Origin: Sinohyriopsis cumingii
Taxonomy: Eukaryota; Mollusca; Bivalvia; Unionida; Unionidae
Length of the DNA stretch: 64,000 nucleotides
Direction of reading: 5' to 3'
NCBI GenBank assembly: GCA_028554795.2
Contig: CM068830.1
Coordinates: forward strand, 112,138,214-112,202,213
In this document: piece after piece, positions 11,531 through 55,015 of the stretch
How the letters are laid out: each line of letters starts with the position of its first letter
Numbering within the stretch: the first letter of the stretch is position 1
Translations under genes and position numbers: made by a program
The notes under the pieces: model-generated
Database searches by the model: none
Seen by the model: the letters and a program-made list of their open reading frames with translations, nothing else
Told to the model about the DNA's origin: nothing

Positions 11531-11540
11531 TTTATATTAA

Positions 11541-12421: not shown

Positions 12422-12835
12422 TATTTATACCTGATTGATCTAATTTATTTGACATGTACTCGTGGACTGTTTTATGGTATGGTTTGTTAGATTTAGATAT
12501 CGCATCGAGTATATTAATCGCCTCATCACCGCAGATCGGAGGACCGGTTAGTGTTTGTGTTGGTAGCGTAGAATACCATGCTGGTATATTTAATTGAGAT
12601 ATGTAATTAAGAAACTCACGAGGCGGAGCTAATCCATATGAGTCCGTGTAGATAATCTCGTGCATTTATCGCGTAAGCAACCCATTGAGTACCTGGTCCG
12701 GTGTTTTTATCGAGATTTATAATTCCTGTTTCATATTTATTGGGGCGAGCTGGTAACTGATCTCGCATGAATACTCCTCTGAAAAATTTTATTTTTTTGT
12801 TTTTTAGCAGCGTTAATTAGATCTAAATTTGACAT
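12414..12835 (-). pseudogene. Adenain-like protease (copy B), broken and lacking the catalytic His
   Basis: The ATG at 12835 begins MSNLDLINAA, matching copy A. Frame changes occur near 12790 and near 12660. The position of the catalytic His reads GTQWV instead of GTHWV, so a key residue is replaced by Gln. The Asp (TDSYG), Gln (TQT) and Cys (PPICGDEAI) regions remain in the open piece 12665-12414. It is inactive by two independent criteria. Confidence 0.65.
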
Positions 12836-12840
12836 CGGTG

Positions 12841-13327
12841 TTATTTTACTAATCGAAGACCTTTCCCGTACCATGAAGGGGGTGTTCCTGGCAGACGATA
12901 ACCTCGACCTTTTTTTTACCGTATTTTCCACCGACTATCTTATTTACGGCTAATCCTCCTAATGATCCAACAGCGCCCAATGCAACGGCTTTTGCTATAG
13001 CTGGTGCAGCCGCGCGGTATCGCGGGTAATGCAGAGGCCTTTGCTGCGCTTAGTGCTGGTATCGCAGCTAACAACGGGAAAAATCCACCTGTTTTTACCA
13101 TATCTTTAATGGCACCAGCGGATAAATTAGCCTGAATTCCTGTGCTACCTGATTTAGCTTTACTGAAACGTGCTAGCTGTTTTTTGGTTAGAGATAGTTT
13201 ATTTGGTCCACCTTGAATTTGATCATGTTTCAATGTTAATTTTTGTCCCGCAGGTTTTTGTGATACTCGATTGTAATTTTTTTATCTGACCCGGAGTCAG
13301 AATTACGCTAAAGTGTTCGTATGGCAT
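12841..13327 (-). pseudogene. KLT-type small structural protein (copy B), broken
   Basis: The ATG at 13327 starts a frame homologous to 3875-4348 (LTPGQIKKL). A shift near 13230 moves to the frame 13233-12940 with SLTKKQLARF and the hydrophobic GGFFPLLAAIPAL segment, and another near 13010 lies in the Ala-rich part. The C-terminus (GYRLPGTPPSWYGKGLRL) ends with TAA at 12841-12843, six bases before the protease ATG. It has a single GKGLRL motif, not the duplicated form seen in copy A. Confidence 0.55.
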
Positions 13328-13356
13328 CTTTTTATAAATAAAACGATTGATTTAAA

Positions 13357-14805
13357 TCACATTTTCTCCACAGAAGCGTCAATAATTCTCATATGACCAC
13401 TAATGCCCTCAAGAATCATGGTTCTTTCGCTGAGTATAACAGCTATAGCTCTAAAATTATGAGCATCTGGATGAGCTGGATCAACTGGGTTAACTATTCT
13501 GGCTTTAAAATGTATATCAACAACAGACTGTTTTACTAAATCAAGATGTGTCAGTGAAAAATAATAAATCGGGTAAAAACTTTTAAAATCTAACTGAGAC
13601 ATTTGTAATCCGGTGTCTATATTTTGATCTCGTCCCATAAAACTCCATAATCGATGATATCCACGTGCTATTTCATTATGATCATAATCCAGTGAAATTT
13701 CTTCAATTGGTTCTTGGTGCCCATTTATTCTCAGTGAAAATTCACTAGCATTAAAATTATCGAAAATCATGTGACTTCGAAGTTTATTTAATCGATTAGC
13801 TCGCTGAAGAGCTATAAAGATATGTCTCGGTGCAGAAACACCCTGCTGTGGTGCTATATGCCAGGTAAAATTACCGTTAATGTTACTGGGCATACTATCT
13901 GTAACTGTTGTTAGCCAGGATATTAATGATTTGCCCCCCTGGTCCATGAAAGATAATAATCTTTCTTCTTCGCCTATTGACGGCGTCATCGATGGCATCC
14001 ACAAAGTGAGTTTAGATAATACAACTTTACCATTATCAGCAACACCAGTGCCAGCTTCTCTCCATATAGCGTCGCTTCGCTACTCTCAGGTTTCCGATAA
14101 AAGATGACTGTGTGTTTAGCCCCAAAAATAACTTTTCTAAAATTTCTACAAAATCCAAAAAATATGAGATAGTGGAATCACGCATGAAAATCTTCTGCGA
14201 GGATTCAATAACGTGCTTCTTCGCGCAGCAAATCCGAGATTAAAATTGGGATTAGTGTTATATAACATTGTAAAATCAGCACCGGGCTGAGCTACTGTTC
14301 CAGATGCCGCAGCAGCTGTAGAAGCAGCATTCATTCGAATTTTAAAATGTGGTTCATGATCAGCGTGATCAGTATTATCTTTTGCAAACATCATGCTGAA
14401 TCCAGCTGATCTAGTATAGTCATCTGAGTACCTTGCTAGGCCAATAATTGTTGTGGCAACGTCAAAGTTATCATTAATTGACTCAATTTCTTTCCCATCA
14501 ATCATGTAAGCTGCGCTCTTGAATAATGCCATGACACCGTTGTTAACAAATCCAATTTTAAAATCGGCTCCAAATGTGTCAATGGGACCAGCAGCAGGAG
14601 TAACTCTTATGATCTCACCAATAACCTCGATAAAAGCCTCACATGGTAGAAAATATCTGGCCGTATCGTGTACCTGTAATTCAGTTCGACTATAGCTGTT
14701 CGGGTCTCTTGCATCACATGAATAATATTGATAATCTCGCACTGAGAGATCCCTTTTTACTGGCTCATCCAGCTTAAAAGCTTCATTGGTTGTTTGCGAA
14801 AACAT
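13357..14805 (-). pseudogene. Probable double-jelly-roll major capsid protein (copy B), frameshifted
   Basis: The ATG at 14805 starts an open piece to 14146 with YFLPCEAF, IGFVNNG and TIIGLARYSDDYTRSAG, ending at the HIF motif where the frame is lost. A short stretch around 14100 is in another frame. The piece 14004-13357 carries the LWMPSMTPS block, HIFIALQ, the SFMGRDQNIDTGLQ segment and VVDIHFKARI to the end. The order and total length match copy A. The two copies are clearly diverged, so they did not arise from a recent duplication. Confidence 0.65.
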
Positions 14806-14820
14806 TATATTATAAATTAT

Positions 14821-15270
14821 TTATCTTCTAAAACGAACACCACCTCCGTATGCGCTGGTATTAATTATATCTTGTTGCGGCTGTGCTAGCAGATTAGCCG
14901 CCTCCTGCTCTAATGCCAGTGATGCTAGTTTTTCATTAGTAGAGTTATTTATTATCTCACTGACGTCACCGGGCATCTCAGCAGTACTCTGTAATTTTAC
15001 AGCGGGTTTTTTTGGTGGCACCACTTTTAATATTCTCTCCTTGACGGCATCAAATGCTTTACTGGCAGCTGATCCAACAACATTAACAGCTTTATCACGA
15101 ATAACATCTATAGCTTTCATTGACAACTGTTTAGCTATAGGACCAACTTTAGGAGCTATTCGTGTGAAAAAATCACCAAATCCTGACCCGTATTTGTATT
15201 TGTACACAGGTAACCGCGAGTTAACCACATAAACTTCTACTGGTCTCTGACGACTCTCGTAAATAATCAT
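14821..15270 (-). CDS. Small basic virion-core-like protein (copy B)
   Basis: An intact 149-residue frame. It shares the N-terminal VYVVNSRLPVYK, the amphipathic block APKVGPIAKQLSMKAIDVIRDKA (split here across positions 30-55) and a basic end (RFRR) with the copy A protein at 1902-2378. It is preceded and followed by the same neighbours as in copy A, ORF3 and the MCP. Function as for copy A: probable small basic virion protein, by analogy. Confidence 0.65.
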   Translation of the reverse strand: MIIYESRQRPVEVYVVNSRLPVYKYKYGSGFGDFFTRIAPKVGPIAKQLSMKAIDVIRDKAVNVVGSAASKAFDAVKERILKVVPPKKPAVKLQSTAEMPGDVSEIINNSTNEKLASLALEQEAANLLAQPQQDIINTSAYGGGVRFRR

Positions 15271-15289
15271 TTTATTATTATCTAATTGT

Positions 15290-16552
15290 TTAATCGCTGT
15301 GATAGTCAGCTAGCTCATCAATAAAATCACGATAAATAGTAACGTCAATGATACCACCCTAGAATAATCTTCTGCAGATATCAGTCGCCTCGTTGATTAT
15401 CTCGTGCGAGTTGTTTCCAGCTCGTTTCCCTCCAATTAAAACCTCTAATCGAGATACGTCATTGACAACACTATCAGGGCAAATAGAATTACAACCACTA
15501 CCTGTAGCACCTAAAGGTTGTTGCTGAGATTTTATTCTCTCATCTACGAGTCTTTTAAATTTTCTAAATAACGTATCTCTCTCATTAATCTCTTTTCCCG
15601 TTGATGCAAAATATACAAGAGGTGCCCATCTTTCTTTAGGTATTATATAATCAGCAAATTCTGGCTTTATATACTGATCTCTTTTATCATATTCAAACGC
15701 AGCAATATCAATTAATTTATCTTCATCTCTAAAATTATCAAGAGCGCGATCATTAAATATTGCAACAGGTTGTAGTTGGGATAAAAGTTCTGGAGAAATT
15801 GGACGAGGAGGTGGGGTACTAACGGGGGAAAGAGATATCAATGGTGGCTGTATAGTTCGCTTTAACGGACGAACTGATCTATCCATTGTGTCCTTAAATA
15901 ATTCATATTCTGGTCCTCTAGCCTGACTTTTACCAGAATGAATACGAAATACCCATTTATTCCAGTTCTCAGGAGAAATATATCTGTTATATTGTGGTTT
16001 TAAGTATTTTTCTCGTTTAAAAAAACTTTTGTTTGTAAACTCAACTAGATCGTCTAATTTTCTAATTGATTTTATTTCACTAATAGCAGATTGTGTAAAT
16101 TTTTCTGTTACATCATCCCTTTCTATAAATCGCTCTAATACAATTTCATCATCATCTATAAATACCTCATCAGACTGATCTTGAGGTTGAGGCTGAGGCT
16201 GAGGTTGAGGCTGATGAACAGCAGCAGCTATACCGGCTGGAAGATCCTGTAAAATCTCCTTTATTTTTTTAGCTCGTAATGCAGTTTTTTTTAGCACAGG
16301 AAGAATACCCTCCTTTTTTTCCTGAGGATCCTGAATATCTCCCAGAAGAATCCTTTCAGTTGTCTCCGCTGCTTTTTCAGTAGCTTTAGTTACTGGCTCA
16401 AATAATAATTCAGTTGATTCAGCAAATCCCACCTTCGCATCCTCAACTTCACGTATTTTTCTCTTAACTGATTCTCGTGTTGGTAAATATTTTCTTATAG
16501 CTTCTCGTCTTTCTCGTGCTATTCTTGATCTTAGTGATTCTCCAACATCCAT
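15290..16552 (-). pseudogene. ORF3 homologue (copy B) with duplicated central module, late in-frame stop
   Basis: Open from the ATG 16552 for 397 codons to TAG at 15357-15359. The same frame then continues with a match to the ORF3 C-terminus and ends with TAA at 15290-15292. Residues 1-110 are a basic helical N-terminus, 113-125 a (QP)n tract, 155-226 and 265-338 two copies of the module that is single in copy A (LVEF/LIDIA..., YLKP/YIKP, W..V/LVYFAS), and 355-397 the conserved SRLEVLIGGKRAGNNS domain. The stop removes only about 20 residues, so a product could still be made. Confidence 0.7.
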
Positions 16553-42113: not shown

Positions 42114-43516
42114 ATAGACAATTCGGCCCAAGACAATTCGGCCCAACTTTGCGATAGTTGTATAAAGTTATTTTTCTTCAAACAGCAAGTAGATACGATG
42201 TAAAATGTATGTGAGAGAGAGAGAGAGAGACAGACAGACAGAGACAACACAAACTAACATACATTGCGCTTTCTAATTAAAATACTTAACTGCATTTATT
42301 CTTTATATGCTAAAAAAATATATGCATCTGCACAACGACATTCTCAATTTAAATAGTCTGGTCAAATTATCTATAATTGATTTATCAAATAATAATACTT
42401 AACAGATAACATTCTACAGAATACGTTTACATTTTTCTAAGAGCAGCGACAGCGTACATGAGATATTATACTAATATATTTGATTTTAGGCTTCAGATTG
42501 TAACACTGCTTCATATATGAATGCCATATTTTCATGACCAAAAGGGATCCAAGAAAAGAGTGAAAACGATTACAGTTTTAATGAACAGTCTCTTGTCGTA
42601 TGTATCTGATACATACGTTATATTTTTGGAGTGACTAAAAAGGCATACACGTTGTAAACTTTCATGTTTATATTTTTGGATCGGAAACTGTTTTGGTTGG
42701 AATGGTATTAATTTGACAACTTAAAATATTTTTGGTGTTTTGAATATTCATTATCATCAATTTAAATGAAATTTAAAATATGAGTCTTTTTCGTAATTCA
42801 TAATAGCAAAACGCAACAATGCTCTGAATTAAATTTATGTGAAATTATCGCAAAATACCTAATTATGCAATTTTCAACCATTTTCCCCGTATCATTAATA
42901 AAATTCTCAAGCAAAATACATACAAGAGATCTTCTCGTATTTGAACGTATTTGTTATGATTTACAAATAATGTAAATCATAACAAATACGTTCAAATACG
43001 AGAAGATCTCTAGTAGCGTATGTATTTTGCTTGAGAGTTAAGATTCTGAGACCAAGTGGGAACGTGCCTAACAAAATCGACCTTCTTCCACAGGAGATAT
43101 GATGCATCTCATTATTGTCTACGTAACTCCCAAAGCATCATGTCCATCTCTACTATACTTCATTTTATCAGACGTCCTTTCTCCACAGTAATATTTGTCT
43201 TTAGAACGGTTTTCCTAAAGATATCAGAAAGCTCCTAACCATTATAACTTCGGAAAACATTTATCTAGTTCACCAAATGTTTCAAATTTTATTCTCAACC
43301 TATTCTATTTTACAAACTAATTAAAATGAGAATAAATAATTAAGTTACCTAATGCAAACATTTTGAACTATACGGTAAAAACATATTATATAAGCATTGT
43401 CAAAATATATGTTAAAAATAAATACTTGTTAAAACTATTGTCAGTTGTATTATAAAATTGGGCCGAATTGTCTTGGGCCGAATTGTCTTTGGTCTGAATT
43501 GTCCAACAGCCGTAGA
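42114..43516. mobile_element. Non-autonomous DNA transposon with GACAATTCGGCCCA termini
   Basis: Two tandem GACAATTCGGCCCAA units at 42117-42149 are mirrored by TTGGGCCGAATTGTC units at 43459-43488. The right end extends with a diverged third unit to 43516 that is missing on the left, so the left end may be truncated. The interior is non-coding and AT-rich, with a strong hairpin at 42906-43036 and a (GA)n tract at 42213-42230. Family unknown. Confidence 0.65.
42906..43036. repeat. Near-perfect long hairpin inside the transposon
   Basis: 42926-42964 is the exact reverse complement of 42972-43010 (39 bp) with a 7-nt loop. After a small internal bulge, 42906-42923 pairs exactly with 43018-43035 (18 bp). 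The low divergence suggests recent formation or active conservation. Confidence 0.92.
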
Positions 43517-43930: not shown

Positions 43931-43936
43931 AGTATC
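43931..43936 (+). repeat. Target-site duplication, left copy (AGTATC)
   Basis: Six bases directly outside the left terminal repeat. The right counterpart AGTGTC at 55010-55015 differs at one base. Confidence 0.75.
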
Positions 43937-44205
43937 AGTAGTAAATGGGGCACCCTAGCGACAATGGGAATTAGCATTACAAGACAACTTGGGCAACTCT
44001 AGCGACAATGGAAAATTAACATGGAGAAAAATCGTGGGACAATCTGGCGACAAGGGAAATTAACATGGAGAAAAATCGTGGGTCACTCTAGCGACAAGGG
44101 GAATTTAACATGGAACTATAGTGTGGGTCTGTCTAGCGACAAAGGGAAATTAACATGGGAATAGAGTTTGGGTTTGTCTAGGGACAAGGGGAATTGAATA
44201 TGGGA
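43937..44205 (+). repeat. Maverick left terminal inverted repeat
   Basis: Nearly identical to the reverse complement of 54740-55009. Inside, a unit of about 45 bp (CTAGCGACAA, GGGAAATTAACATGG, AAATCGTGGG) is repeated about six times. Confidence 0.93.
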
Positions 44206-44245
44206 TTTTTTTTTTAAATTTAAATTTAAATTTAAATTTAAAAAA
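44206..44245. repeat. Palindromic (TTTAAA)-type tract next to the left terminal repeat
   Basis: A poly-T run, four TTTAAATT-type units, then a poly-A run form a perfect-looking palindrome of about 38 bp. Confidence 0.8.
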
Positions 44246-44264
44246 AGGGGTAGGCAATGGAAAG

Positions 44265-44312
44265 GCTATCTCTTTTCGAGAAATATGGCTGGCCCTGAAA
44301 AGGGCCTTTGGG
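44265..44312 (-). terminator. Histone-mRNA-type 3' stem-loop after the left coiled-coil gene
   Basis: On the minus strand the sequence reads CCCAAAGGCCCTTTTCAGGG then CCAGCCA. The stem-loop is at 44291-44306 (six pairs, four-base loop) with the flanks of the metazoan replication-dependent histone 3' element (CCAAAGGYYYTTYTNARRRC then CACCCA). A purine-rich CTCGAAAAGAGA follows at 44267-44278, where the U7 snRNA-binding downstream element would lie. It sits 54 nt after the stop of the 44361-44720 gene. Confidence 0.7.
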
Positions 44313-44360
44313 TTTTCTTCTTCTTCTGCTTCTAATTTCTTCTTTTTCTCCACCAAGTTC

Positions 44361-44720
44361 TTATTTTATCTCAAACACTCTTTCTCTTCTTCTCTTTCTT
44401 TTCTCCTGCTCTTCTTTCTTCTTCTTCTCTTCCTCCTCTTCTTTCTTCCTCTTCTCATTTTCTTCCTCTTTTTCAATCTTTTCGTTCCATTTGCTTATTC
44501 TTATTCTTTCCTCTTCATCCTCCTTCTCCTCCTTGATCTCTTTTATGACACCACTAATCTTGTCCTTTACCTTTTTTAAGTTATTAATTTCCATCTTTAC
44601 ACGATGGGGACTATAGGAATAATGGTCTTCAACCAGTCTTATTAACATCTGCTCCATCATTCCTAAGTTGTCTAAAACGTCTTGTAATGTTTGTATTTTG
44701 TCCATTTGGTTAGAAGCCAT
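44361..44720 (-). CDS. Charged coiled-coil protein at the left end of the Maverick
   Basis: A 119-residue protein. Residues 1-55 form an amphipathic helical region with hydrophobic heptads (LQDVLDNLGMMEQMLIRLV). From about residue 65 onward it is almost purely Glu/Lys/Arg, a long charged coil. The DNA is correspondingly a purine tract, so a frame by chance is possible. A TATAAG box 53 nt upstream and a histone-type stem-loop 54 nt downstream argue that it is a real transcription unit. Function unknown. Confidence 0.6.
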   Translation of the reverse strand: MASNQMDKIQTLQDVLDNLGMMEQMLIRLVEDHYSYSPHRVKMEINNLKKVKDKISGVIKEIKEEKEDEEERIRISKWNEKIEKEEENEKRKKEEEEEKKKKEEQEKRKRRRERVFEIK

Positions 44721-44771
44721 CTTCTTTTTTTATTCTTTGCAGAATGGTTTGAACGACGAATACTATGGGTT

Positions 44772-44777
44772 CTTATA
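44772..44777 (-). promoter_or_regulatory. TATA box of the left coiled-coil gene
   Basis: TATAAG on the minus strand, 53 nt before the ATG at 44720. Confidence 0.5.
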
Positions 44778-44784
44778 CTTAAAG

Positions 44785-45080
44785 CGCGTACGTGAAGGAA
44801 AACATCCCCCTAAAACGTAAAATTGATCTTACCTAGATCATGACCAAACAACGCGCAAACGTGAAGGAAAACATCCCCCTACTTTTTCATTTCATATAAT
44901 AAAACCCAAACTATACTTTCTCATTTCATATAATAAAAACCCAAACTATACTCTCCACATACGCTAAGAAACAATAAACAAAATCCATAATCTACTATCC
45001 GCACAATCTTACGTGAGCGCTTACAAAACCCAAACTATACTCTTCACATACGCTAAGAACAATAAACAAATCCATAATCT
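44785..45080. repeat. Non-coding direct repeats between integrase and coiled-coil gene
   Basis: ACGTGAAGGAAAACATCCCC occurs near 44790 and 44850, and CTTTCTCATTTCATATAATA-type blocks occur near 44884 and 44917. A 55-bp block (CCAAACTATACTC.TCCACAT, ACGCTAAGAA) occurs at 44938-44994 and 45028-45080, the latter entering the integrase 3' end. Confidence 0.75.
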
Positions 45081-46068
45081 CGTTTGCCCACTTTTCGGGT
45101 TCTGCGTTCGAGAATGCTTTCGATGTCGTACACGTCGTCTTCTTTTTTGGTGACACGTTGTAACTCGGGCAAATAAAACGTTCCTTTGAGCACTTCTCCG
45201 TTCATGTCTTCCAATTTATAGACGGCAGGATGACGGCCATGCACCCGTCCAGTGACGCGAAACAATTCGGTCGTCCAGTTAGGTAAGTAACCTTTGTCGA
45301 AAGTGCGTTTGGTTTTGCCAATGAGCACCCAATCTCCTACGGCCAACTCTCCACTTTTTTTGGGGACAGCCCTCGTCGGGGACGTACCAAACAGGCGCTC
45401 AAACACCAACACTTCGTTGTCGGGATGCTTCGATGGTAAGATTGGTTGTACGCTTGCACCAGGTGCGGTAAGATGTCGATGTACTTCAGAGCGTGGTGAT
45501 GCGTAAAATATTTCCACATGCGTTCTTTCAAAGTGCGTTGAAAACGTTCCACGATGCTGGCTTTGGTTTCGGGATTCTCGGTGGTAAAAAAATGAATGTC
45601 ACGTTTCTTTAATTCTTTTTGGAAAGCTTGGTTCAGAAATTCGGTGCCTTTGTCCGTTTGCCATCGAAGAGGGTGACGACCGCTTTGTTTCAACACCCGT
45701 TGCAGGGCTCGAACTAACTCGCTGCTGGATTTGGAAGTCAAGGGCACGACCCAGGCAAATTTGGAAAAGACGTCGATGACACAAAACAAATATTTGTAGC
45801 CACGATTGTAGCTGGCCAAATGAGAGACATCGGCTAAATCGGCTTGCCATTGATGATCGATGCCTTCCACTCGGGTGCGACTTCTGGCAAACTTGCGTCG
45901 AATGGGTTTGTGTAAAGTGTAGGTAGCTTGTTCTTGTAACCATCGTTGCACTTGAGGTAAACGGAGACTTTTCAGTCGCGTTTTGGTAGCACGATACAAT
46001 TTTTGAACTCCTGCGTAACCTGCAGGATGGGAGGGATCGTAGTAAATGCTGGCCAAGACTTTTTCCAT
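45053..46068 (-). pseudogene. Maverick retroviral-type integrase (rve, DD35E), one frameshift
   Basis: Strand transferase that inserts the element into host DNA. From the ATG at 46068 the frame has an HPAGYAG N-terminus, a core with Asp77 (WQADLAD), Asp139 (QTDKGTEF) and Glu174 (IVERFQ), exactly 35 residues between the last two. The frame is lost near 45430. The C-terminal part is in another frame (45517-45053) with a VGDWVLIGKTKR SH3-like segment and a YKLEDMNGE chromodomain-like end. All three catalytic residues are intact, but the shift separates the core from the DNA-binding tail. Confidence 0.85.
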
Positions 46069-46089
46069 TTTTTTGTGTTGGTTGGTGTG

Positions 46090-46728
46090 TTAATAAGACA
46101 CCCACTCTTGGAGGATGCTACTCTTTTTCTCTTGGGGTATTTTCTTGGATTGCAATGCTTTGCGTGTGCGGCCAGCAATAGGTGTCGAAGAGGAGAAGGA
46201 TGTCTGAGCGGGGGATATCGGTTCTTGTTTCACTTCTGTCTTCACTTCTGTCTTCACTTTCTTTTTCTCTTGTGAGGAAGAAGGGGTGGCCATCATCTTT
46301 TTAATCCATCCAATTCTGGAGGTAGATGGTGTTGTTAACTTGCGTACTTTTTCTGGTGGAGTTTGAAACCCTTCCTCTTCTTCTCCTTTTTCTGTCTTGG
46401 TCACGGGTACTGGTGGTACTGGTACTGGTACTGGCGATGGTGCTGGACTTTTCATCAAGGTCTTAAAATCTTTCAGAGTGGGTAGAGCTGTTTCGTCTAA
46501 AGCTTTCTGGTGAAAGAGTTGCAGTCGTTGCAAGAGTTGACCGTACTTTTGCGATTTTTCTGTTTCGGACAAATCTTGGCGATCCATCAAGGACTGCAAT
46601 TCGTGTTGTAACTGGGACATCTCGCTCAAATGGGGATTGGGAGGTAAATGCGGGGTGTGTTGTTCTTGCCACCAATGGTATTCCATCCATCGTTTGTAAG
46701 GCACTAAAGCTAGTTTTCGTCCTTCCAT
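46090..46728 (-). CDS. Maverick accessory protein with LVPYKRW N-terminus
   Basis: A 212-residue protein. Residues 1-95 contain KLALVPYKRW and a helical DLSETEKSQKYGQLLQRLQLF stretch, which I recognise in Maverick and adintovirus-type hypothetical proteins located next to the capsid genes. From about residue 95 it is a Pro/Val linker and a Lys/Ser-rich disordered tail. A structural or assembly role is likely, given its usual neighbours, but no biochemical role is known to me. A GATAAAAAGG box lies about 45 nt upstream. Confidence 0.65.
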   Translation of the reverse strand: MEGRKLALVPYKRWMEYHWWQEQHTPHLPPNPHLSEMSQLQHELQSLMDRQDLSETEKSQKYGQLLQRLQLFHQKALDETALPTLKDFKTLMKSPAPSPVPVPVPPVPVTKTEKGEEEEGFQTPPEKVRKLTTPSTSRIGWIKKMMATPSSSQEKKKVKTEVKTEVKQEPISPAQTSFSSSTPIAGRTRKALQSKKIPQEKKSSILQEWVSY

Positions 46729-46770
46729 GGGGTTGTCAGGGGTCGATTCTGAGATCTTGGAACTTCCGAG

Positions 46771-46782
46771 GCCTTTTTATCT
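46771..46782 (-). promoter_or_regulatory. TATA-like box of the LVPYKRW gene
   Basis: AGATAAAAAGGC on the minus strand, about 45 nt before the ATG at 46728. The TAA in it is the stop codon of the upstream gene. Confidence 0.5.
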
Positions 46783-47163
46783 TGCTCCCACCAATCCTCC
46801 CAACATGGTTCCCAAGACTCCTTTCAGTATGGGGCCTAACAAGAGAGGTAAAATACCTCCACGTTGCATTAACATCTTCTTTTTTTGACGAATGGGAATT
46901 TTCATTTGAACCATTTGGCGAAGAACGTGACGATGTTTGCCTAAGCATTGTTTCTGGTGTTTGGACAAAGGGATCGTGCCTTTCAAAACGTTCAAACAAC
47001 ATTCGCACACGGTATCGATGACCTCTTTGGAGGCTGTTTGAATGAGTTTTTTTCGTAGGGGTGGAGAAGCTTTGGACAGGACAGATAACATGTCCCCATG
47101 TTTGGCTAAACGTGGTGGCAGTCCTTTCCTTTTCTTTCCTTGGGGTTTTCTGGAGGGTGACAT
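46777..47163 (-). CDS. Maverick conserved small basic protein with hydrophobic C-terminus
   Basis: A 128-residue protein from the ATG 47163 (the upstream GTG at 47193 is unlikely because the TATA box lies at 47218). It has a basic N-terminus, a central conserved block (VIDTVCECCLNVLKGTIPLS followed by HKQ...KHR), a Lys-rich helix and a terminal GGILPLLLGPIL hydrophobic stretch. This pattern is widespread in Mavericks and resembles a membrane-active minor virion protein. The frame is intact. Confidence 0.7.
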   Translation of the reverse strand: MSPSRKPQGKKRKGLPPRLAKHGDMLSVLSKASPPLRKKLIQTASKEVIDTVCECCLNVLKGTIPLSKHQKQCLGKHRHVLRQMVQMKIPIRQKKKMLMQRGGILPLLLGPILKGVLGTMLGGLVGAR

Positions 47164-47217
47164 CTTTGAGTCTTCAGGAGCACCAAAAAACACTGATACC
47201 CGACTTGGTCACAGGCC

Positions 47218-47227
47218 TTTTTTTATA
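47218..47227 (-). promoter_or_regulatory. TATA box of the small basic protein gene
   Basis: TATAAAAAAA on the minus strand, about 55 nt before the ATG at 47163. Its TAA is the stop codon of the 47223-48143 gene. Confidence 0.6.
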
Positions 47228-48143
47228 CTGGAACGTGTCGCCACTGATTGTCTTTACGTCGTATTAGTTTGAGGACAGGCATGACACGTCGTGCAGGGGT
47301 ACGTAACGGAATAAATCGAGCCAGTTCTTGCTTGGACAAATCCAGTAAACTTTGTAACATGCCCGATCTTTCTTGAACTTTGATTTTGGGAGAAGGTACT
47401 TTGTGAGCAGTAGCCACTGCCACTAAATTGGAAGGTCCTGCCACTGGGGAAGTTCTTTTGGGGGTCATCAACGGAGAAGTTCTTGGTGTGATCAACGTCT
47501 CCAAGTACTCTTCAGTTCTGGGTGTCATTAACGGAGAAGTGGACAAACGTGAAGCTGCCGGAGACGCAGTCACCGCCGTGGCAGGTCGTGGTTTGCGAGT
47601 GTAAGGTTGCGTCCTGGCCGAAGTGCCTCTCTTGCGACTAGTTTTCTGTGGACTTTTCTTTTTCTGGAGGCTTCTTTTCTTTTTCCGGGGTGGTGGTGGT
47701 GTCTGGTCAGAGGAGGGTCCTGCCACTGGAGAAGTTCTCCTTGGGGACCTGGTCTTTTTCTTCTTGGGGCTTCGTTGGACTTTTGTCTTGGGTATAACTT
47801 TGGGGGCATTAGGATCCCATCTTAAGAGCGAGCGAATGATGACCCCTCCTAGAGTAATGCTCCCTCTAGGTTTCAAAATGATTTGTTTTTTGGTTTGAGT
47901 GTCGATGCGGGGATCGGCCAGTTGGACCAAAGCGACTTTGTTTGGATCGAAAAAGCGTTTGGTTTGATGAGGAATCTGAATGATTCCTTGGAGTAATTGA
48001 CGTGCCGTCACCGTGAACCATCATAAGACTTCTTTGAGACTTTCTTCTAAGACACGAGCTCGTGTTTGTGGATTTTTTTCTCGACTGATGCCATACAAGG
48101 CACGAATCAATTTGACGGGAAGATGCGACTGAAGGGACGTCAT
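47223..48143 (-). pseudogene. Maverick Pro/Lys-rich structural-type protein, one in-frame TGA
   Basis: The ATG at 48143 opens a frame with a helical start (LPVKLIRALYGISREKNPQT) that meets TGA at 48021-48023 and continues in the same frame to 47223. The second part has FFDPNKVALVQLADP and RGSITLGGVIIRSLLRW, which match the conserved N-terminal half of a common Maverick protein. A long Pro/Lys/Ser-rich disordered basic middle with repeated TSPLMTPxR units follows, and a helical end. A TATA box lies 40 nt before 48143, supporting that start. Function unknown, likely virion or DNA-associated. Confidence 0.6.
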
Positions 48144-48180
48144 GTTCGCACTGTGTGAGACAGACGAAAAAGGGTCTGAG

Positions 48181-48189
48181 GTTTTTATA
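48181..48189 (-). promoter_or_regulatory. TATA box of the Pro/Lys-rich protein gene
   Basis: TATAAAAAC on the minus strand, about 40 nt before the ATG at 48143 and just after the ATPase stop. Confidence 0.6.
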
Positions 48190-48196
48190 GATTTTT

Positions 48197-48940
48197 TTAT
48201 GGGGAGTGAAATGAAGTCGAGGACGGAGACGTGTACAGGACAGGCCCTCCGTCTTGGCACCAGTGGTGAAACAAGTGGGTACGAAATCGCAAATCCTCGG
48301 GAGTCGTAGGTTTCAAATCGACGAGTAAATAGGCGTGTGGCGTTTGAGTGGCATCGTCGTACGCCTGAGTCAGCCAAGGCGTTCCTAACTGTTTGGCTAA
48401 GACTTGCACTTGCGATTTATCTCGAGGGCTTTTAAACAAGACCACGTAATGCGCATTGAGACTGATGGTGCGATGGGCTTTACTTTGTTGAAACAAATTT
48501 TGGGTGATGTAAACGACACTGGCATTACGGTGATGCCCTTTGCGCGTGAACCACAGTTTAATTTCTTCTTCGTCTTCTCCTAACATGTCGTCGAAAATGA
48601 CCAAATGGGTTTGACGGGAGTCAGAGACGATGCCGTCGTCTTCTTTAGGAATGCCTTCCACAAACACGATGGAATCGCCTTGACTTTCTCGCAAGAGGCT
48701 GTACGCCGATTGCCACTCTTTGTAACACCAAACGATCCGTTGAGGGGGCCGATCGATCAAATGATGTTTATGTTCGATCAAACGTTTGACGAATTCGGTT
48801 TTGCCTGAACCGCTAGGTCCAGCAATGAGCATGTTAAAGGGATGGCGAAGATACAAAGCCTCCCAACTGGCACGATCTAAGTGTTCGTCGATGACTTTGA
48901 CGGTAGAGGAAGAGGGAGCAGAGACAGTAGAGGTAGCCAT
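48197..48940 (-). CDS. FtsK/HerA-type genome-packaging ATPase
   Basis: A 247-residue protein from the ATG 48940. Walker A GPSGSGKT at residues 41-48, Walker B THLVIFDDM in the middle, then a VVYITQNLF sensor segment typical of the A32-like packaging ATPases of Mavericks and related viruses. It pumps viral DNA into empty capsids. The 48985 upstream extension is ignored because a TATATAAAC box lies at 48988-48996, about 50 nt before the ATG. The frame is intact, although the element lacks any capsid gene for it to serve. Confidence 0.85.
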   Translation of the reverse strand: MATSTVSAPSSSTVKVIDEHLDRASWEALYLRHPFNMLIAGPSGSGKTEFVKRLIEHKHHLIDRPPQRIVWCYKEWQSAYSLLRESQGDSIVFVEGIPKEDDGIVSDSRQTHLVIFDDMLGEDEEEIKLWFTRKGHHRNASVVYITQNLFQQSKAHRTISLNAHYVVLFKSPRDKSQVQVLAKQLGTPWLTQAYDDATQTPHAYLLVDLKPTTPEDLRFRTHLFHHWCQDGGPVLYTSPSSTSFHSP

Positions 48941-48987
48941 GGTGTGAGGAATGTCACTTGTGACACGAAAAAACAAACAAGACAAGA

Positions 48988-48996
48988 GTTTATATA
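48988..48996 (-). promoter_or_regulatory. TATA box of the packaging ATPase
   Basis: TATATAAAC on the minus strand, about 50 nt before the ATG at 48940. Confidence 0.6.
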
Positions 48997-49163
48997 CTTT
49001 TTCAGAACACGTTTATTGAATGTTTTTTTCAAACATGAATACGAAAGACAAAAATACATAAAAGCCAAAGGCTTAAGTACAAGAATAAAAGGCACATGAA
49101 CGTGGAATAAAAAACAAGTGTCTGTACAACAACCACATGTTTTGGGTAAAGTTCTAACCAGTT

Positions 49164-49433
49164 CTATAGTAGGGGTAAGGCCACACAAGTGTCCTCCCGA
49201 AAGGGTCTTTCAGGCCTGTCCACGACAGTCCTTTCCTGGGTGACGGGTTCTTCTGGCACCGTCACTAACACAGGTTGAAAAGTAACTTTTTTCCTTGAAT
49301 AACTCTCGTGCATACTAGGCCACATCTTGTGTCCAAGCCTCAAAACCCTGGTCTCGGTGATGTCCAACATTTGACTCCTAACCAATCTGGTTTCTTCTTC
49401 GTCAACGACATGGTAAGTTACTTCAATGAACAA
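49164..49433 (-). CDS. Small ORF after the polymerase gene
   Basis: An 89-codon frame starting a few bases after the polymerase stop, with no ATG (TTG at 49433). It has a beta/alpha-looking pattern (EVTYHVVDEEETRLVR, VTFQPVLVTVP). It could be the remnant of a short Maverick gene or a continuation by coupled translation. I do not recognise it with confidence. The 49000-49160 region between it and the ATPase TATA box looks non-coding. Confidence 0.4.
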   Translation of the reverse strand: MFIEVTYHVVDEEETRLVRSQMLDITETRVLRLGHKMWPSMHESYSRKKVTFQPVLVTVPEEPVTQERTVVDRPERPFREDTCVALPLL

Positions 49434-49437
49434 TGAA

Positions 49438-52400
49438 CTATCGATCTTGCCTAGGGTTCCTTTTCATATACAGACCAATACCGACGTGACCGTACGGTAA
49501 GGTGAAGTGATTGGGAAGTCGCACTCGCTTCTGGTATACAATTTGATAGACTTTTTCCAAGGGTCGACTGACGATGTGGTGAGTGGGTAAACGTACAATC
49601 TTGTTCGGTTGATAGGTGGTCACTTTAAAGTTTCCATCCTCTCCCGATTGCAAGGCTTCTTTCAATACCCCAAAGTTCACCACTCGACTGGTACGATGAT
49701 TCAGAGTCAGTCCTTTCACTTTGCACGTCGTGTGCACTTCTCCTTGTTTGTCCCGGTATTCGTAGCCGTAATTTTTGGGACCACCACTGACGAAACTTAG
49801 AATCTTGTCGTCGGGATGCTCGTCTGTCCAGGCTCCTAAACGGTCTCCTTCGATGTCAGGGTGCTGTTGAATCGGGTGATGGATGTAAATGCAACTGTTC
49901 GTGTCAAAGTACAGGACGCGTTCTTCTAACAGTTCTAAATCTTCGTACAATTTTAAGCGAGCATGAGCTGTCACGTAAGCCGCAATGATGACATTTCCAA
50001 AAGGGTCGTCTTGTACAAAGTCCAGATCTTCTTCGTAATTGACCAAGATCAAATCCTCTCGAACGACGTCCACGTGTTTCATGTATTTGGTTTTGTCGTG
50101 AATCATCTGGAAGTAGCGGGAAGGTTCTGTCAAATATTCCGTCTTGGGTAAACACGGTCGTTGTGCCATTTTACCCCACAAGCAATTTAACATCACTTTG
50201 GCAAACGATCGCCTGCCTTCGTTTTTTTCGATGTGGTCTAAAGAGATGCCTTCTTGTGCGTAGTATTTCTCTTTGAATTGTATTTGGTCTTCGGGAGTGT
50301 GACACCAGGAAGGATAGCCGCTGGCTTCTTGTTTCAGTTTCAAAAAGGCATCCACGTAGTCGGCGAAAATGCCTTTCTGAGTAGGGTCACCCTTGTGGTA
50401 CTGTTGTGTCTTGGGAAAGTGGCAAATTTCGTACACTTCTAACAGTTGGTATCCCATGTCCAGAGCTTTGAACAATTCCACGCTGACCCAGGTTCCCGTC
50501 AAGGCACGTTCTTCCTGGCTGTGATGGCAAGGTTGGTCCTGGTTGCAGGTTTCGGCACAAGTACGGCACAAGGGAAACATCAGTTTGCCTTGACAATGGT
50601 GAGGTAAGACGGGATGGTATAGGTTCGTGGGAGGCAAAACTTTACACTTGATCAAGCCTTCGTATTGTCGAATGTTTATCAGGTCGATGTGTTCCGTGAA
50701 CAATTGCGGGTGCCCTACAGGAAAGCGACAATAATTGCACACGTAGGGATACAGCGAACACACGTCCAAGTATTTGATTTCTTCTCCTTTCTCTTCGTCG
50801 GCTTGGTACAGCAAACAGGTGGCATTGGTCCTTCCTCCGTACAAACTATCCCTCGGGTTCAGCGGGTCCATGAACTGGTAACTTTCCATGAGGCGTTTAA
50901 ACTCGGGATCGGTTTTCAAACGGTGATCGTACTCGTGTTCCCACATTTCTACCACTTGGTATCCTTGCTGTTCTAACTTTAGGCGTCGCTGACAAGTGTC
51001 CTGGTACAAGTCTTCGATGGTTCGATGCAAAAACTGATTTTTAGTGTCACGGTCAGGGTAACAGATGGGACATCCGTGAAATAAGCAACCGTTAAACTCG
51101 TACACGATCTTGGGGTTTTCTAAGTCCCAGCCATCTACCGAATACGTTCCGATGGTCTTTTCGCCTCCTCCGTTGCGGGCATGCTGAATCCATTTGTCTT
51201 CCTTGTCGCACAAGTAATGTAACCAACGTAGGGCTTTGACCGAGTATTGACGCTTGACATAGTGGGTCGTTTGAGGACTGATGACAGCCACGGTGTTTTC
51301 AGGCATGAATCGTTGGCGGTACACTAAGGAACACGCTTTGGCAATGGTGCAAGCTTCTTTCAAAGGATCGACCCCTCCGTGTTCCATGAACAGTTCTCGA
51401 AATTTTCCACAGCAACGTCGTAAAATGTCCACGTCGGAACGACAATACTTTAACATTTCTTCCTGAAAGTCGAAGGGGTCAGAGGCATGAGCCTGGTACC
51501 AAGCGTAGAAAGCTTCTCGTTGTTCGGTACGCATGTTGTCCGGGTCGTAATAGTGAGCCTCAGGTAAATGGGGTAGAACGGCATGTTGATTGGCTTCTGT
51601 ATTAAAAAAGTGTGGAAAGTACCCTTTAGCCATTTCTGTCAGTCCAAACGTTTTAGGCATTCGACTCAAAGGCATGGCCAAGTAACTCATCTAATCTTTA
51701 AACTGTACTTGTCCCACTTGCATGAAAATGATTTTGGCTCCGTTCAAAGTGACTTTAGGACGTTCGGTGCCTTGTTCCGTATAGTATCTGAGAAGAAACT
51801 GTCCATGGTATCCGGAGAAATTGTGAGCCATCACCGTGGCATGACGATGACAATCTCCGTAACGTTCGATGTCCTCTTTGCTCCATGTCTTGTCGATGGG
51901 GTCTAAGACCCATTGGGCAAAATCGGCTAACGTGTTTGGTCCTCGAAAGATTTTTTCACGTCCTCCAGGAATCTTGCTGCAGTGAGGGCAATGACTGAAG
52001 ATAGGTTCTTGAATGCACTTCTCGCACGCTCGATGAGCCACGCAGAAATTAGGAATGTGAATGCCGGTCTCTTGCATGCATTCGAAATCGAAAAAGATGA
52101 AATTGCCTTTCTTCTTGTGACCGTCCTCTTCCTCTGGTGGGGGTTGGTTTTTTTGCACGTAACATTCGTGTTCCAAGTCCACGATGTGGTGACAAATGTG
52201 ACATTTTTTCTTTCCTCGACATACGTGTGCCTTGGTACTATTGGTACGTATGCCTTGTCCACACGTAGGGCACAATCTCAGGAGTTGACAAGCACATTTC
52301 TTCTGTGAACCTTATGTTTTCAAATGTTGCTGGTAACAGGTAGGACTGACAAACGGGCGCAGACAAGTTGAACAAGGCACTGGTTCTTCGCTCAGACAGG

Positions 52401-53502
52401 GTGGAGAGGCCAAACATCCTGGGCATTTCCATCCACAAGACTTGTGTTGCTCTCGATTGTTATAACCATAATCACATTTCTCACAATAATAACTGTATCC
52501 CAGGAATCCAGTGATACTGGTAATGGTATCGAAATGTTCATCGTGATAATAGACATGAATGTATTTTCCGTCCTTAAAATCTTGGCCTCAAAACAACAGA
52601 GTTCCACGCATTTCTTGAGGGTGCACTTTCAAGGTGTAGCGTGGAGCTAGGGCATCTTGCAATTTTTGCATCTCATGAATGCCACAGGGTGTGTCTTTGG
52701 ACAGTCCGGCTTGTTGTAACAGGAGTTCTGCTTCATTTCGTTGTTTGGCTCGATCGGATCGTTGAATAGTTTTCCAGCTTCTTTTCCATTCTACCGTGTC
52801 GTTCTTGTTGGCATAGGTTCGTCCCACCACGATGGCACGGGCTAAACACATCTGGTCTTGAGGGTTGTGAATTCGGACGAGACTTGTTTTGGTGTTGCGA
52901 AGGTTGTCCACCAATAACATCTTTTTGCGTCCTGTCCCTTGAGGAAGAGAGACGTGGGCCATTTTCAGTGTGGCTTTACCATCGGTGATGTAAAACTGGT
53001 CATTAGATTGTTGTACGTGTTGAATCTTGTCCATGATTTTGGAAGGGGTTAGTTCTGCGGGTCTGCTAAACTCGATCCAAACAGGGGATTTCAAACCGTC
53101 GTGATCTATGGATAGTGTCAAGCGATCGTCTTCTTTGGGTTGACATTGTCGCTTGAGTGCGGTGAGCAAAGAATCCCACATCTCGGTGATAAACCCTTCT
53201 GCTTTCTCCAAGGGTACGTCGGCCTTGAAATCTTTAAACTTCACCGTGTAGGTGTAAGCCGTGGTTCTAAATTTTCTAGAGGAGCGCTTTTCCGTCTCTC
53301 GAATGGAAAAGTACTTTTCAGGGTTGACTAAGGGTGGTGAACTTGGTTTAGAGGGTTCGGATTCTGGTTCACTCATGTCCTCTTCAAAATCATTGGCATG
53401 AATTTGTGCCAAGATTTCAGCCCTGGTACGAGGCGATAGATCACGTTTCTGCCTCTTACTTTCTTCTTCTTCTTTCTTCTCGAATGAATAGGATCGTTTC
53501 AT
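49438..53502 (-). pseudogene. Protein-primed DNA polymerase B (Maverick type), three in-frame stops
   Basis: Replicates the element from its ends. One frame runs about 1355 codons without a frameshift but with TGA at 52588-52590, TAA at 52312-52314 and TAG at 51691-51693. Order: acidic N-terminus; conserved SLVRIHNPQDQMCLARAIVV region; Cys-rich zinc-binding region (about 52470-52190); exonuclease motif I FDFECM; motif II HNFSGYHGQF, where the usual Asp after GY is His (51805-51807); motif III YCRSDVD; polymerase motif A LDVCSLYPYV (50743-50766); motif B NCLWGK (about 50165-50195); motif C YFDTNS, where the second Asp of DTD is Asn (49897-49899). The stops and two catalytic changes make activity unlikely. 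Confidence 0.88.
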
Positions 53503-53635
53503 CTTGAGTGCAAAACGTCAAATGACTCAAGTTCAAACACCATAGACTAATTTATAGTCATGGCAAACCAGCGTATATAAAAAGGGTGTGTCTTGTCCTT
53601 TCACTATTCATTTCACTCTCAAACCGAGGAGAACG
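53503..53635. promoter_or_regulatory. Divergent promoter between polymerase and zinc-knuckle genes
   Basis: TATAAATT on the minus strand (53549-53556) lies about 48 nt before the polymerase ATG. TATATAAAAAG on the plus strand (53574-53584) lies 52 nt before the zinc-knuckle ATG. The two boxes are 18 bp apart, back to back. Confidence 0.65.
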
Positions 53636-54118
53636 ATGGAAGAGACTAGCCAAATCGAACATTTCGTCAGAGCTTTGCGAGGGGTCATTAGAAAATTCTC
53701 TTCAGACCAGCCGACATACTACTCTCCTTCCTTTCGAGATAAGAGTAAGGATACTTGCTATATCTGTCAGAAGAAAGGGCATTGGTCTTCAGAGTGTCCA
53801 GACCGTCAAAAAAGAAAAAAAACAGGGGCTAAAAAAGACAAAAGTCAAGATACCTGTTATTATTGTAAAGAAAAAGGACATTGGTCTCCAGATTGCCCAA
53901 CAAAGAAACAAGAGGAGTCAGAAGAAAAGAAGGATTCTTCAGAAGAAGAGAGGGATTCTTCGGAAGAAGAGAGGGATTCTTCGAAAGAAGAGAGGGATTC
54001 TTCAGAGGAAGAAAGAAGACAATTCTATTTAAAAGAAGCAAAGAAACAGGAGAAGAAAAGAAGAAGGGAAGAAAATGAGGAAAAAACGGTGAAGAAATTC
54101 AAAAAACAGAGAGACTAA
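53636..54118 (+). CDS. CCHC zinc-knuckle protein with Ser/Glu repeat, opposite strand
   Basis: A 160-residue protein. Two CX2CX4HX4C knuckles, CYICQKKGHWSSEC (about residues 41-54) and CYYCKEKGHWSPDC (about 73-86), are single-strand nucleic-acid binding motifs like those in retroviral Gag and cellular CNBP. Next comes a fourfold 21-bp repeat encoding DSSEEER, then a Lys/Arg/Glu-rich coil. The ATG at 53636 is chosen because it follows a TATA box by 52 nt. The frame at 53586 on the same strand is a shadow. It is the only plus-strand gene in the element. Possible single-strand DNA or RNA binding in protein-primed replication (inference). Confidence 0.75.
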   Translation: MEETSQIEHFVRALRGVIRKFSSDQPTYYSPSFRDKSKDTCYICQKKGHWSSECPDRQKRKKTGAKKDKSQDTCYYCKEKGHWSPDCPTKKQEESEEKKDSSEEERDSSEEERDSSKEERDSSEEERRQFYLKEAKKQEKKRRREENEEKTVKKFKKQRD

Positions 54119-54342
54119 ACAAGGAGAAAGAAGAAGTCAATGAACTTTTAATTAAAGTGTTGTGCTGTGAATTGGATTGTAAAAATGGATAAAAGAATAC
54201 ATGAATGATATAAGGTAAGTGTCTTTGAGTTTTGATTTTAAAATAAGAAGCTACACTCACGCACTCATACACAGACACGTACTATAAGGGTAAAATGGGT
54301 GGGGTTTATTTTTGAGTTATTGGCAAATTGAAATTGTATTTT
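54119..54342. other. Non-coding spacer in the Maverick
   Basis: 3' flank of the zinc-knuckle gene; no feature recognised. Confidence 0.4.
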
Positions 54343-54385
54343 TTTTTCGAGAAATGTGGGTGGCCCTGAAAAGGGCTTTTTTATT
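54343..54385 (-). terminator. Histone-mRNA-type 3' stem-loop after the Gln-rich ORF
   Basis: The minus strand reads AAAAAAGCCCTTTTCAGGGC then CACCCACA, with the stem-loop at 54362-54377 and the exact CACCCA flank of histone 3' ends. TTTCTCGAAAAAA follows. It lies 26 nt after the stop of the 54403-54747 ORF. The block 54345-54376 is shared with 44274-44306 (TTCGAGAAAT.TGG.TGGCCCT), so both element ends carry the same signal. Confidence 0.7.
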
Positions 54386-54402
54386 TTGGTGTAGGGGTGA
54401 GT

Positions 54403-54747
54403 TTAACCAATCAACTTTAACTGCCTTAAGCCTTTGCCACGGCCAAGGCCTACTTCTGATGATTGGGTTGAAATCACTAAGGGTGGTACGATAGGCTTAG
54501 TGACAGGGTTGACGTGTTTAGCTCGGGAAGGTCGTATTCTCTTCGGTCGTGATAACGAAGTCTGATACATTTGTTTCAGACTTCTTAACTCCGCTAAAAT
54601 GTCCAACAGTACCGTAGCCGTTTGATTTTCACCCTCTTGTTTCTTTGCTGCTACTTCTTCTTGCTGTTGTTGCTGTTGTTTTTTTCTTACCTCTTCTTGT
54701 TGCTGTTGCTGTTGCTGTAGGAGAAAAGCTTGTTCCGTTTCCCATAT
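54403..54747 (-). CDS. Gln-rich coiled-coil ORF at the right end, start unresolved
   Basis: The minus-strand frame is open from about 54747 (just inside the terminal repeat) to 54403. It has two runs of Gln separated by EEVRKK, then LLDILAELRSLKQMYQTS (helical) and a basic tail (SRPKRIRPSRAKH). There is no ATG in this frame. An ATG in the adjacent frame begins at 54744, so an indel in the CAG/CAA repeats could have displaced the start. A histone-type stem-loop follows its stop, mirroring the left-end gene. Confidence 0.45.
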   Translation of the reverse strand: MWETEQAFLLQQQQQQQEEVRKKQQQQQQEEVAAKKQEGENQTATVLLDILAELRSLKQMYQTSLSRPKRIRPSRAKHVNPVTKPIVPPLVISTQSSEVGLGRGKGLRQLKLIG

Positions 54748-55009
54748 TCAATTCCCCTTGTCCCTAGACAAACCCAAACTCTATTCCCATGTTAATTTCC
54801 CCTTGTCGCTAGACAGACCCACACTATAGTTCCATGTTAAATTCCCCTTGTCGCTCGAGTGACCCACGATTTTTCTCCATGTTAATTTCCCTTGTCGCCA
54901 GATTGTCCCACGATTTTTCTCCATGTTAATTTTCCATTGTCGCTAGAGTTGCCCAAGGGGTCTTGTAATGCTAATTCCCATTGTCGCTAGGGTGCCCCCA
55001 TTTACTACT
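54740..55009 (-). repeat. Maverick right terminal inverted repeat
   Basis: Reverse complement of 43937-44205 with very few differences, including one extra G in the outer GGGGG run. It holds the same 45-bp internal units. Confidence 0.93.
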
Positions 55010-55015
55010 AGTGTC
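55010..55015 (+). repeat. Target-site duplication, right copy (AGTGTC)
   Basis: Directly outside the right terminal repeat; differs by one transition from AGTATC at 43931-43936. Confidence 0.75.

Follow-up and report, generated by a model that had tools for sequence, protein, structure and literature searches.

To our knowledge, hardly any animal mRNAs end in the stem-loop considered here apart from those of replication-dependent histone genes. Mavericks (Polintons) are recognized by long terminal inverted repeats that start with AG and by a 6-bp target duplication. Hairpin-directed mRNA ends are reported for Mimiviridae (PMC4402537), where viral enzymes make the cut and add a poly(A) tail. 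The Maverick described here shares terminal inverted repeats, PolB, an A32-type ATPase, and an rve integrase with known Mavericks and adintoviruses, but differs from them in its histone-type 3′ ends; as in Mimiviridae, a hairpin would fix its mRNA ends, but the Maverick carries host histone signals in place of ends made by viral enzymes. With replication-dependent histone mRNA ends (Rfam RF00032; SLBP/U7 snRNP) its sites have in common the stem sequence, the 4-nt loop and the flanks, a purine element 13–14 nt past the stem, and a short distance from the stop codon, whereas the Maverick ORFs before the signal have no match to host histone proteins, some sites read AGCCA for ACCCA, and one site type has an outer A-U pair. 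The sequence-only reading of this locus knew of no such description in Mavericks, and we found none in the Maverick literature searched, from which the words histone and stem-loop are absent.

The window (the whole 64,000-nt stretch of DNA analyzed) contains a Maverick/Polinton copy with the following features.

43931..43936, plus strand: possible left target-site duplication, AGTATC (identical to the right one at 5 of 6 letters)
43937..55009: Maverick/Polinton copy, reduced, about 11.07 kb, with inverted terminal repeats, PolB, A32-type ATPase, and rve integrase
43937..44205: left terminal inverted repeat, tandem units of about 45 nt, 98% complementary over 259 nt
44270..44277, minus strand: histone-downstream-element-like GAAAAGAG, 13 nt past the stem
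44291..44306, minus strand: histone-type 3′ stem-loop GGCCCTTTTCAGGGCC, Histone3 35.6 bits over 44266–44311
44361..44720, minus strand: E/K-rich ORF, 119 aa, preceding the stem-loop, C-terminus unlike that of sister copies
45337..46068, minus strand: rve integrase (Pfam rve, E 1.5e-14)
48197..48940, minus strand: A32-like packaging ATPase (Pfam Pox_A32, E 7.1e-8)
49438..51690, minus strand: DNA polymerase B ORF, 750 aa (Pfam DNA_pol_B_2, E 1.2e-34)
52588..53502, minus strand: ORF of 304 aa without Pfam family
53636..54118, plus strand: zinc-knuckle (CCHC) gene, neighbor without stem-loop, ATTAAA 32 nt past the stop
54339..54348, minus strand: altered downstream element GAAAAAAAAA, 13 nt past the second stem
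54362..54377, minus strand: second histone-type stem-loop AGCCCTTTTCAGGGCC with a broken outer pair, Histone3 29.8 bits over 54338–54382
54403..54747, minus strand: Q-rich gene, C-terminal part, cut at the terminal repeat (complete at 186–197 aa in sister loci)
54740..55009: right terminal inverted repeat
55010..55015, plus strand: possible right target-site duplication, AGTGTC

The terminal inverted repeats extend to AGTAGTAAATGGGG at either element end, as read into the flanks, and the terminal features are those of a Maverick/Polinton, with the 6-bp duplication just outside (AGTATC and AGTGTC) matching at only 5 of 6 letters. Pfam matches among the window ORFs supply the three genes named above, and the polymerase shares 43–51% identity with a chosen set of 13 relatives that includes an adintovirus and covers molluscs, cnidarians, insects, and others. 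Searching the window with tblastn recovered only residues 75–189 of the 189-aa Q-rich protein and did not recover three genes of sister copies: the 77-aa gene, the gene of about 310 aa located after the integrase, and the fourth stem-loop gene; we therefore regard the copy as reduced. The Pfam scan of 8 window ORFs gave no capsid family, in a copy that is reduced, and the proteins of the stem-loop-ended genes matched no Pfam family above its cut-off. The 20 relatives of the Q protein carry either no name or the label hypothetical and lie on contigs no longer than 2.3 kb. Elsewhere in the window, two stretches with Maverick-type capsid genes gave no Histone3 match, so the stem-loop is not a general feature.

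The sequence-only reading had recognized histone 3′ stem-loops on the minus strand near both ends of the element, and a covariance-model search agreed, with both sites scoring above background and aligned over all 46 positions of Histone3. The first scores 35.6 bits (E 1.2e-6), above the gathering score of 34, whereas the second, at 29.8 bits (E 1.7e-4), falls below it. Several details needed adjustment. The CACCCA said to follow the stems is seen at the second site (ACCCA), while the first has AGCCA; conversely, the purine element is intact at the first site (GAAAAGAG at 13 nt), where the second reads GAAAAAAAA. The distance from stop to stem, given as 26–54 nt, was 54 nt at the first site but measured 25 nt at the second. 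A signal near each end is correct, although the arrangement is not simply one per end, since sister copies have two such genes at each.

In these sister copies, all of which come from this one host genome, at least four genes end in the signal, two near each element end, and at all four site types the stem-loop lies on the coding strand just past an ORF. The Q-gene and fourth-gene sites lie 0.87–1.17 kb further inward than the E/K-end and 77-aa sites. In most copies the stem begins 15–32 nt past the stop, and GAAAAG usually follows 13 nt past the stem, exactly so in 53 of the 57 distinct Maverick cassettes that passed a strict filter on the stem (the second window site did not). A purine element of the type predicted to pair with U7, about 13 nt past the stem, is thus found in the cassettes and absent at the second window site. 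By comparison, the host H1, H2A, H2B, H3, and H4 genes have a like stem 27–38 nt past the stop, with GAAAAG 13–14 nt after it. Spacers differ between the Maverick site types, three of which form separate groups by their upstream 8-mers. Two types played no part in the choice of loci: the stem-loop was present after the 77-aa gene in 24/24 loci with 0–1 mismatch (5–6 in the reversed control), and after the fourth gene in 8/9. No stem-loop was found 700–1700 nt downstream of the integrase in 20/20 stretches drawn from 150 scored matches among 50,921 candidates (best sense match 6 mismatches, antisense 3–6); another gene likely follows there, with the element end further on, and this null result speaks neither for nor against a signal at the ends.

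Presence in related elements, on which the earlier reading depended, proved extensive: besides these unselected sites, the extended motif has exactly 13,976 exact copies in the 2.9-Gb host genome, compared with 0 for the reversed control. An 86-nt nucleotide query of the site returned no match from a search program that passes over very common words. On inspection, each of 38 loci (36 distinct places) corresponded to the ends of this element, and none matched host histone proteins. The Histone3 cut-off was exceeded by 75/75 of the host-genome candidates scored, out of 589,472 from a first look, and the best 8 of those scored were all Maverick ends when fetched. Outside the host, separate scans of viral contigs returned 0, 1, and 3 matches, which we attribute to chance: the ORFs around the single match (L009) resemble those of tailed phage, and the three matches are nearly one and the same site, also with phage-like ORFs. 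Three further matches in genome contigs were in bacterial records and were likewise taken as chance. No PolB relative was found in the viral contig collection, making it uninformative on metazoan Mavericks.

Sequence, position, and orientation of the Maverick stem-loops are joined by conservation and a compensatory change, both of which the sequence-only reading had proposed to look for. At the unselected 77-aa site (rows for the Q site had been picked by exact match), identity is.958/.972 in the stem, 1.0 in the loop, and.976 in the downstream element, falling to.83 in the spacer and.33–.61 from +50 to +115. The gene upstream of that site has a pS of.427 and a dN/dS of.14 over 23 intact ORFs, so that a stem-loop and downstream element 96–100% identical stand against a 43% difference at synonymous sites. 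At the fourth site, an outer A-U pair replaces G-C in 7/9 loci (7 Maverick rows of the alignment), keeping the stem paired; a second two-sided change occurs in host H1 only. In a chosen set of 23 sequences (18 from Mavericks), the covariation score was reached by 0/500 shuffles and the number of two-sided pairs by 69/500; the alignment rows were chosen by hand with variants over-represented, and counts from them are not frequencies.

Poly(A) words set the stem-loop genes apart from their neighbor. The 77-aa gene has the stem-loop in 25/25 copies and AATAAA or ATTAAA within 160 nt in 2/25, the fourth gene 7/7 and 0/7, and the zinc-knuckle gene 0/20 and 14/20; this last gene probably uses ordinary poly(A) signals. 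AATAAA or ATTAAA precedes the stem-loop in 7/24 Q-rich copies (in one unmatched copy, within 160 nt), with the Q-site counts biased by row choice through exact matching, and AATAAA lies within 160 nt in 2/5 E/K end genes, so some copies of both could be polyadenylated.

Together, the Histone3 scores, unselected sites, host-like spacing, focused conservation, and compensatory pair support an interpretation of the SLBP/U7 type, and we consider it very probable that, for some of its genes, this Maverick/Polinton lineage uses the host replication-dependent histone mRNA 3′-end pathway. Under this model, two genes near each end would each terminate in an SLBP-binding stem-loop, the purine element 13 nt after the stem would pair with U7 snRNA, and cleavage of the pre-mRNA would fall between stem-loop and purine element, yielding a non-polyadenylated mRNA kept stable and translated chiefly during S phase, the time at which the Maverick DNA could be copied. 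The sequence evidence strongly implies SLBP/U7 processing and coupling to S phase, and from it we infer that binding by SLBP and U7, cleavage, S-phase timing, and lack of a poly(A) tail would apply to the Maverick mRNAs themselves.

A single captured histone 3′ end might instead have been carried along passively as the element multiplied, without being used. The family is large, its best-scoring integrase copies are alike (91–100% identity among the 150 scored out of 50,921 candidates), and the Maverick motif resembles that of the host; yet the signal directly follows four different genes, with three site types separable by upstream 8-mers, the spacers vary among sites while the stem-loop and downstream element outlast synonymous divergence, and a compensated pair is seen at the fourth site, all of which leave passive copying unlikely. 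We think it highly unlikely that the hairpin acts at the DNA level, in terminal repeat binding, replication, or packaging: although in the window some 85 nt separate the E/K-end site from the terminal repeat, and in sister loci (L002 and L014, for example) terminal-repeat-like sequence follows the 77-aa site, the sites of the Q gene and the fourth gene lie well further in, every type has the motif on the coding strand just past an ORF, and the conserved GAAAAGA is one-sided and non-palindromic.

Giant viruses are reported to have hairpin-directed mRNA ends (PMC4402537), and a generic viral 3′-end signal of the Mimivirus kind would be handled by an element-encoded enzyme. The Maverick sequence is specifically histone-type, its downstream element is spaced as in the host, and no such enzyme was recognized among the scanned ORFs of the reduced window copy, making this very unlikely. 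About 14,000 genomic copies could conceivably serve as a sponge titrating SLBP or U7 away from host histone mRNAs, but the stem-loops follow ORFs, one with a dN/dS of.14, which favors expression of the Maverick genes themselves and reduces the sponge to a negligible prospect.

Use of the host pathway by selected Maverick genes, if true, would represent a novel link between S phase and gene expression in a virus-like element, and a Maverick with the signal on several non-histone genes would serve as a natural experiment on what stem-loop and downstream element can do alone. We lean slightly toward a two-class program in which the end genes would give stem-loop S-phase mRNAs and the others polyadenylated ones, and in which the multiplied ends may burden or reshape the host SLBP/U7 machinery. 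The exact Maverick-type motifs are about twentyfold more numerous than the 662 first-look histone-fold candidates in the genome, and histone stem-loop searches in such a genome return transposons by the thousands.

Histone-type stem-loops are present at both places where the sequence-only reading had claimed them, 44291-44306 and 54362-54377, each with a match to the covariance model for the replication-dependent histone mRNA 3′ stem-loop (Rfam Histone3, RF00032); the first exceeds the model's cut-off, while the second is matched below it.

Stem-loops of the window element
44306-44291, minus strand: stem-loop 1, GGCCCTTTTCAGGGCC, Histone3 35.6 bits, E 1.2e-6 (cut-off 34)
54377-54362, minus strand: stem-loop 2, AGCCCTTTTCAGGGCC, Histone3 29.8 bits, E 1.7e-4 (below the cut-off of 34)

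The alignment spans all 46 model positions at each site, and in the search giving 35.6 bits Histone3 was the sole Rfam family above its cut-off in the 64 kb window. The surroundings of the polymerase, ATPase and integrase genes of the element held no additional Histone3 match (E up to 5).

The element encodes DNA_pol_B_2, a Pox_A32-type ATPase and an rve integrase, and its inverted repeats, with 98% complementarity across 259 nt, reach outwards to AGTAGTAAATGGGG on left and right, with AGTATC / AGTGTC beyond. These terminal repeats (43947-44205 and 54740-54998) are mostly ~45-nt tandem units, and a further tandem repeat (53897-54022, 21-nt unit) lies within the zinc-knuckle gene. The search with the polymerase counted 1954 relatives. 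Identity is 88% for the top one of the 120 listed (JGI source) and 54% for the next; those with names come from oysters, mussels, other invertebrates and one adintovirus. This copy of the Maverick is reduced. By tblastn of the window, only residues 75-189 of 189 of the Q-rich protein were recovered, and the 77-aa gene, the fourth stem-loop gene and a ~310 aa gene (MSHENQFYLTLPSDSSMEVFP...) were not found. The last lies 3′ of the integrase in the five sister stretches, of 20, whose translations were inspected (L078, L081, L085, L094 and L097); the 20 integrase-downstream stretches have no blastn match within the window.

Among sister copies in the host genome, the stem-loop follows four types of Maverick gene.

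Maverick genes followed by the stem-loop
Type 1: 76-77 aa Arg-rich ORF; adjoins the terminal repeat; outward
Type 2: Q-rich ORF, ~190 aa; divergent from the 76-77 aa Arg-rich ORF; inward
Type 3: E/K-rich ORF; opposite element end; outward
Type 4 (site 4): ORF with terminus GARPGRC..; 0.87-1.17 kb before the E/K-rich ORF

The distance from stop codon to stem is 15-32 nt in the majority of Maverick copies, with outlying values in the window (54) and in sister loci L028 (7), L033 (40), L008 (-41) and L024 (-60), and of 86-95 at site 4 in L004, L006, L008 and L012; one site each in L010, L024, L027 and L035 has no suitable ORF ahead of it.

Host histone genes are arranged as ~8.3 kb repeats, mostly on small contigs (e.g. 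C531 and C561), and the two stretches fetched from them (L070, L071) contain H3, H4, H2B, H2A and H1, with Histone3 matches of 35.0-39.4 bits at 27-38 nt past the stop. Host H1 is 97% identical to one relative, the nearest named being from Mytilus, Saccostrea and Crassostrea, which points to a molluscan, probably bivalve, host. U7 snRNA includes the complement of AAAAGAG. The distance from stem to GAAAAG is 13 nt for host H3, H4 and H2B and 14 nt for H2A and H1; it is exactly 13 nt in 53 of the 57 distinct Maverick cassettes passing a strict stem filter, the other four being one site each in L002, L004, L029 and L033. Directly behind the Maverick stem, the next five letters read ACCCA (38), AGCCA (15), ACTCA (2), ACCAA (1) or ACTCC (1).

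Over the 2.9 Gb host genome Histone3 gave 589,472 candidates, and all 75 of those scored were above the cut-off. The exact pattern GGCYCTTTTCAGRGCCACC occurs 6,873 + 7,103 times (13,976), the reversed pattern 0 + 0 times. None of the five host histone genes in the two repeats matches it, differing in loop, stem or post-stem letters, and the 13,976 places are therefore not copies of those genes. We inspected the eight best-scoring Histone3 places (L001-L008) and the first 30 exact-pattern places (L010-L039), 36 distinct places in all (L015 and L020 duplicate L014 and L019). In blastn comparisons all 38 loci match end regions of the window element, the longest piece measuring 348-1987 nt; no match to host H1, H2A, H2B, H3 or H4 proteins was found in any of them; by extrapolation, the remaining exact-pattern places would be Mavericks too.

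Two site types allowed a check for absence from related elements, and the signal proved present in 24/24 (77-aa site) and 8/9 (site 4) loci. Upstream sequence assigns 24 of the 30 pattern loci to the Q-gene type, and their 77-aa site, which played no part in selection, lies 1050-1088 nt from the Q-gene site on the opposite strand; its 16-mer has 0 (19 loci) or 1 (5 loci) mismatches, against 5-6 for the reversed control. Site 4 was sought in nine loci chosen via the E/K-end site, where all except L023 have a stem-loop within two mismatches of the A-U form. Its outer pair is A-U, not G-C, in seven loci, L004 among them with a broken inner pair; these (L005, L006, L008, L012, L018, L027 and L004) also carry CTAGAAAAGA, and L001, with a broken outer pair, has neither. 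Site 4 seems to resemble the host histone form more than the other three types do.

Averaged over all pairs of the 24 unselected 77-aa sites, identity is.71-.84 in the preceding coding region,.958 in the final 8 nt before the stem,.958 /.972 in the stem, 1.0 in the loop,.83 in the 13-nt spacer and.976 in GAAAAGA, then.79,.61,.41 and.33 beyond it. For the 77-aa ORF pS is.427 and pN.086 (dN/dS.14; 23 distinct intact ORFs from largely the same loci); the stem-loop and downstream element are therefore kept above the spacer and far above synonymous sites. The Q ORF has pS.084 and dN/dS.39 (13 ORFs), and the zinc-knuckle ORF a dN/dS of.45 (18 ORFs). In a chosen set of 18 Maverick and 5 host sites (23 in all), 95.7% of the pair cells are paired, with two-sided change at two pairs, the outer in seven Maverick rows and the second in host H1 alone. 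Slid controls were far below the real alignment, and 0/500 shuffles reached its covariation score or its percentage paired, although kinship among sequences can beat shuffles even without structure; 69/500 reached the number of two-sided pairs and 500/500 the number of pair types.

Stem-loops (within 110 nt) and poly(A) words (within 160 nt) after genes
77-aa gene: stem-loop 25/25; AATAAA 0/25; AATAAA or ATTAAA 2/25
Site-4 gene: stem-loop 7/7; AATAAA 0/7; AATAAA or ATTAAA 0/7
E/K end gene: stem-loop 5/5; AATAAA 2/5; AATAAA or ATTAAA 2/5
Q gene (copies mostly stem-loop-selected): stem-loop 23/24; AATAAA 10/24; AATAAA or ATTAAA 10/24
Zinc-knuckle neighbour: stem-loop 0/20; AATAAA 6/20; AATAAA or ATTAAA 14/20

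Because these hexamers are frequent in AT-rich DNA, the contrast between genes is suggestive only. The histone-type 3′-end signals of this Maverick lineage are real and conserved, the sequence comparisons support each putative processing signal, and the lineage very probably uses them. In human histone pre-mRNA, SLBP binds the stem-loop, U7 snRNA pairs with the downstream element and cleavage falls at a CA between the two, and histone locus bodies contain the active machinery solely during S phase (PMC9756948). By analogy, Maverick stem-loop mRNAs would be cut after ACCCA, lack a poly(A) tail and be highest in S phase. Among the papers listed by literature searches, with subscription literature mostly outside their reach, none dealt with 3′ ends of histone type in Mavericks or in any other mobile element, though an earlier report may exist; the terms 'histone', 'stem-loop' and 'polyadenyl' are absent from the main text of two Maverick papers (PMC8097293, PMC4028283), and a third paper mentions histone-like proteins in related viruses, a term search of it giving no stem-loop (PMC11071296). 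The element is of a known kind, as is the host machinery concerned; the histone-type ends would be the new feature.

Elsewhere in the window, ORF stretches at 504-7885 (plus strand) and 10516-16552 (minus strand), both of which include a gene of the double jelly-roll capsid type, are probably other Mavericks, and have no Histone3 match (E up to 5). About 0.9 kb outside the element, a near-perfect ~100-nt hairpin (42917-43020), whose microRNA-model matches are far below cut-off, is perhaps a small inverted-repeat transposon.
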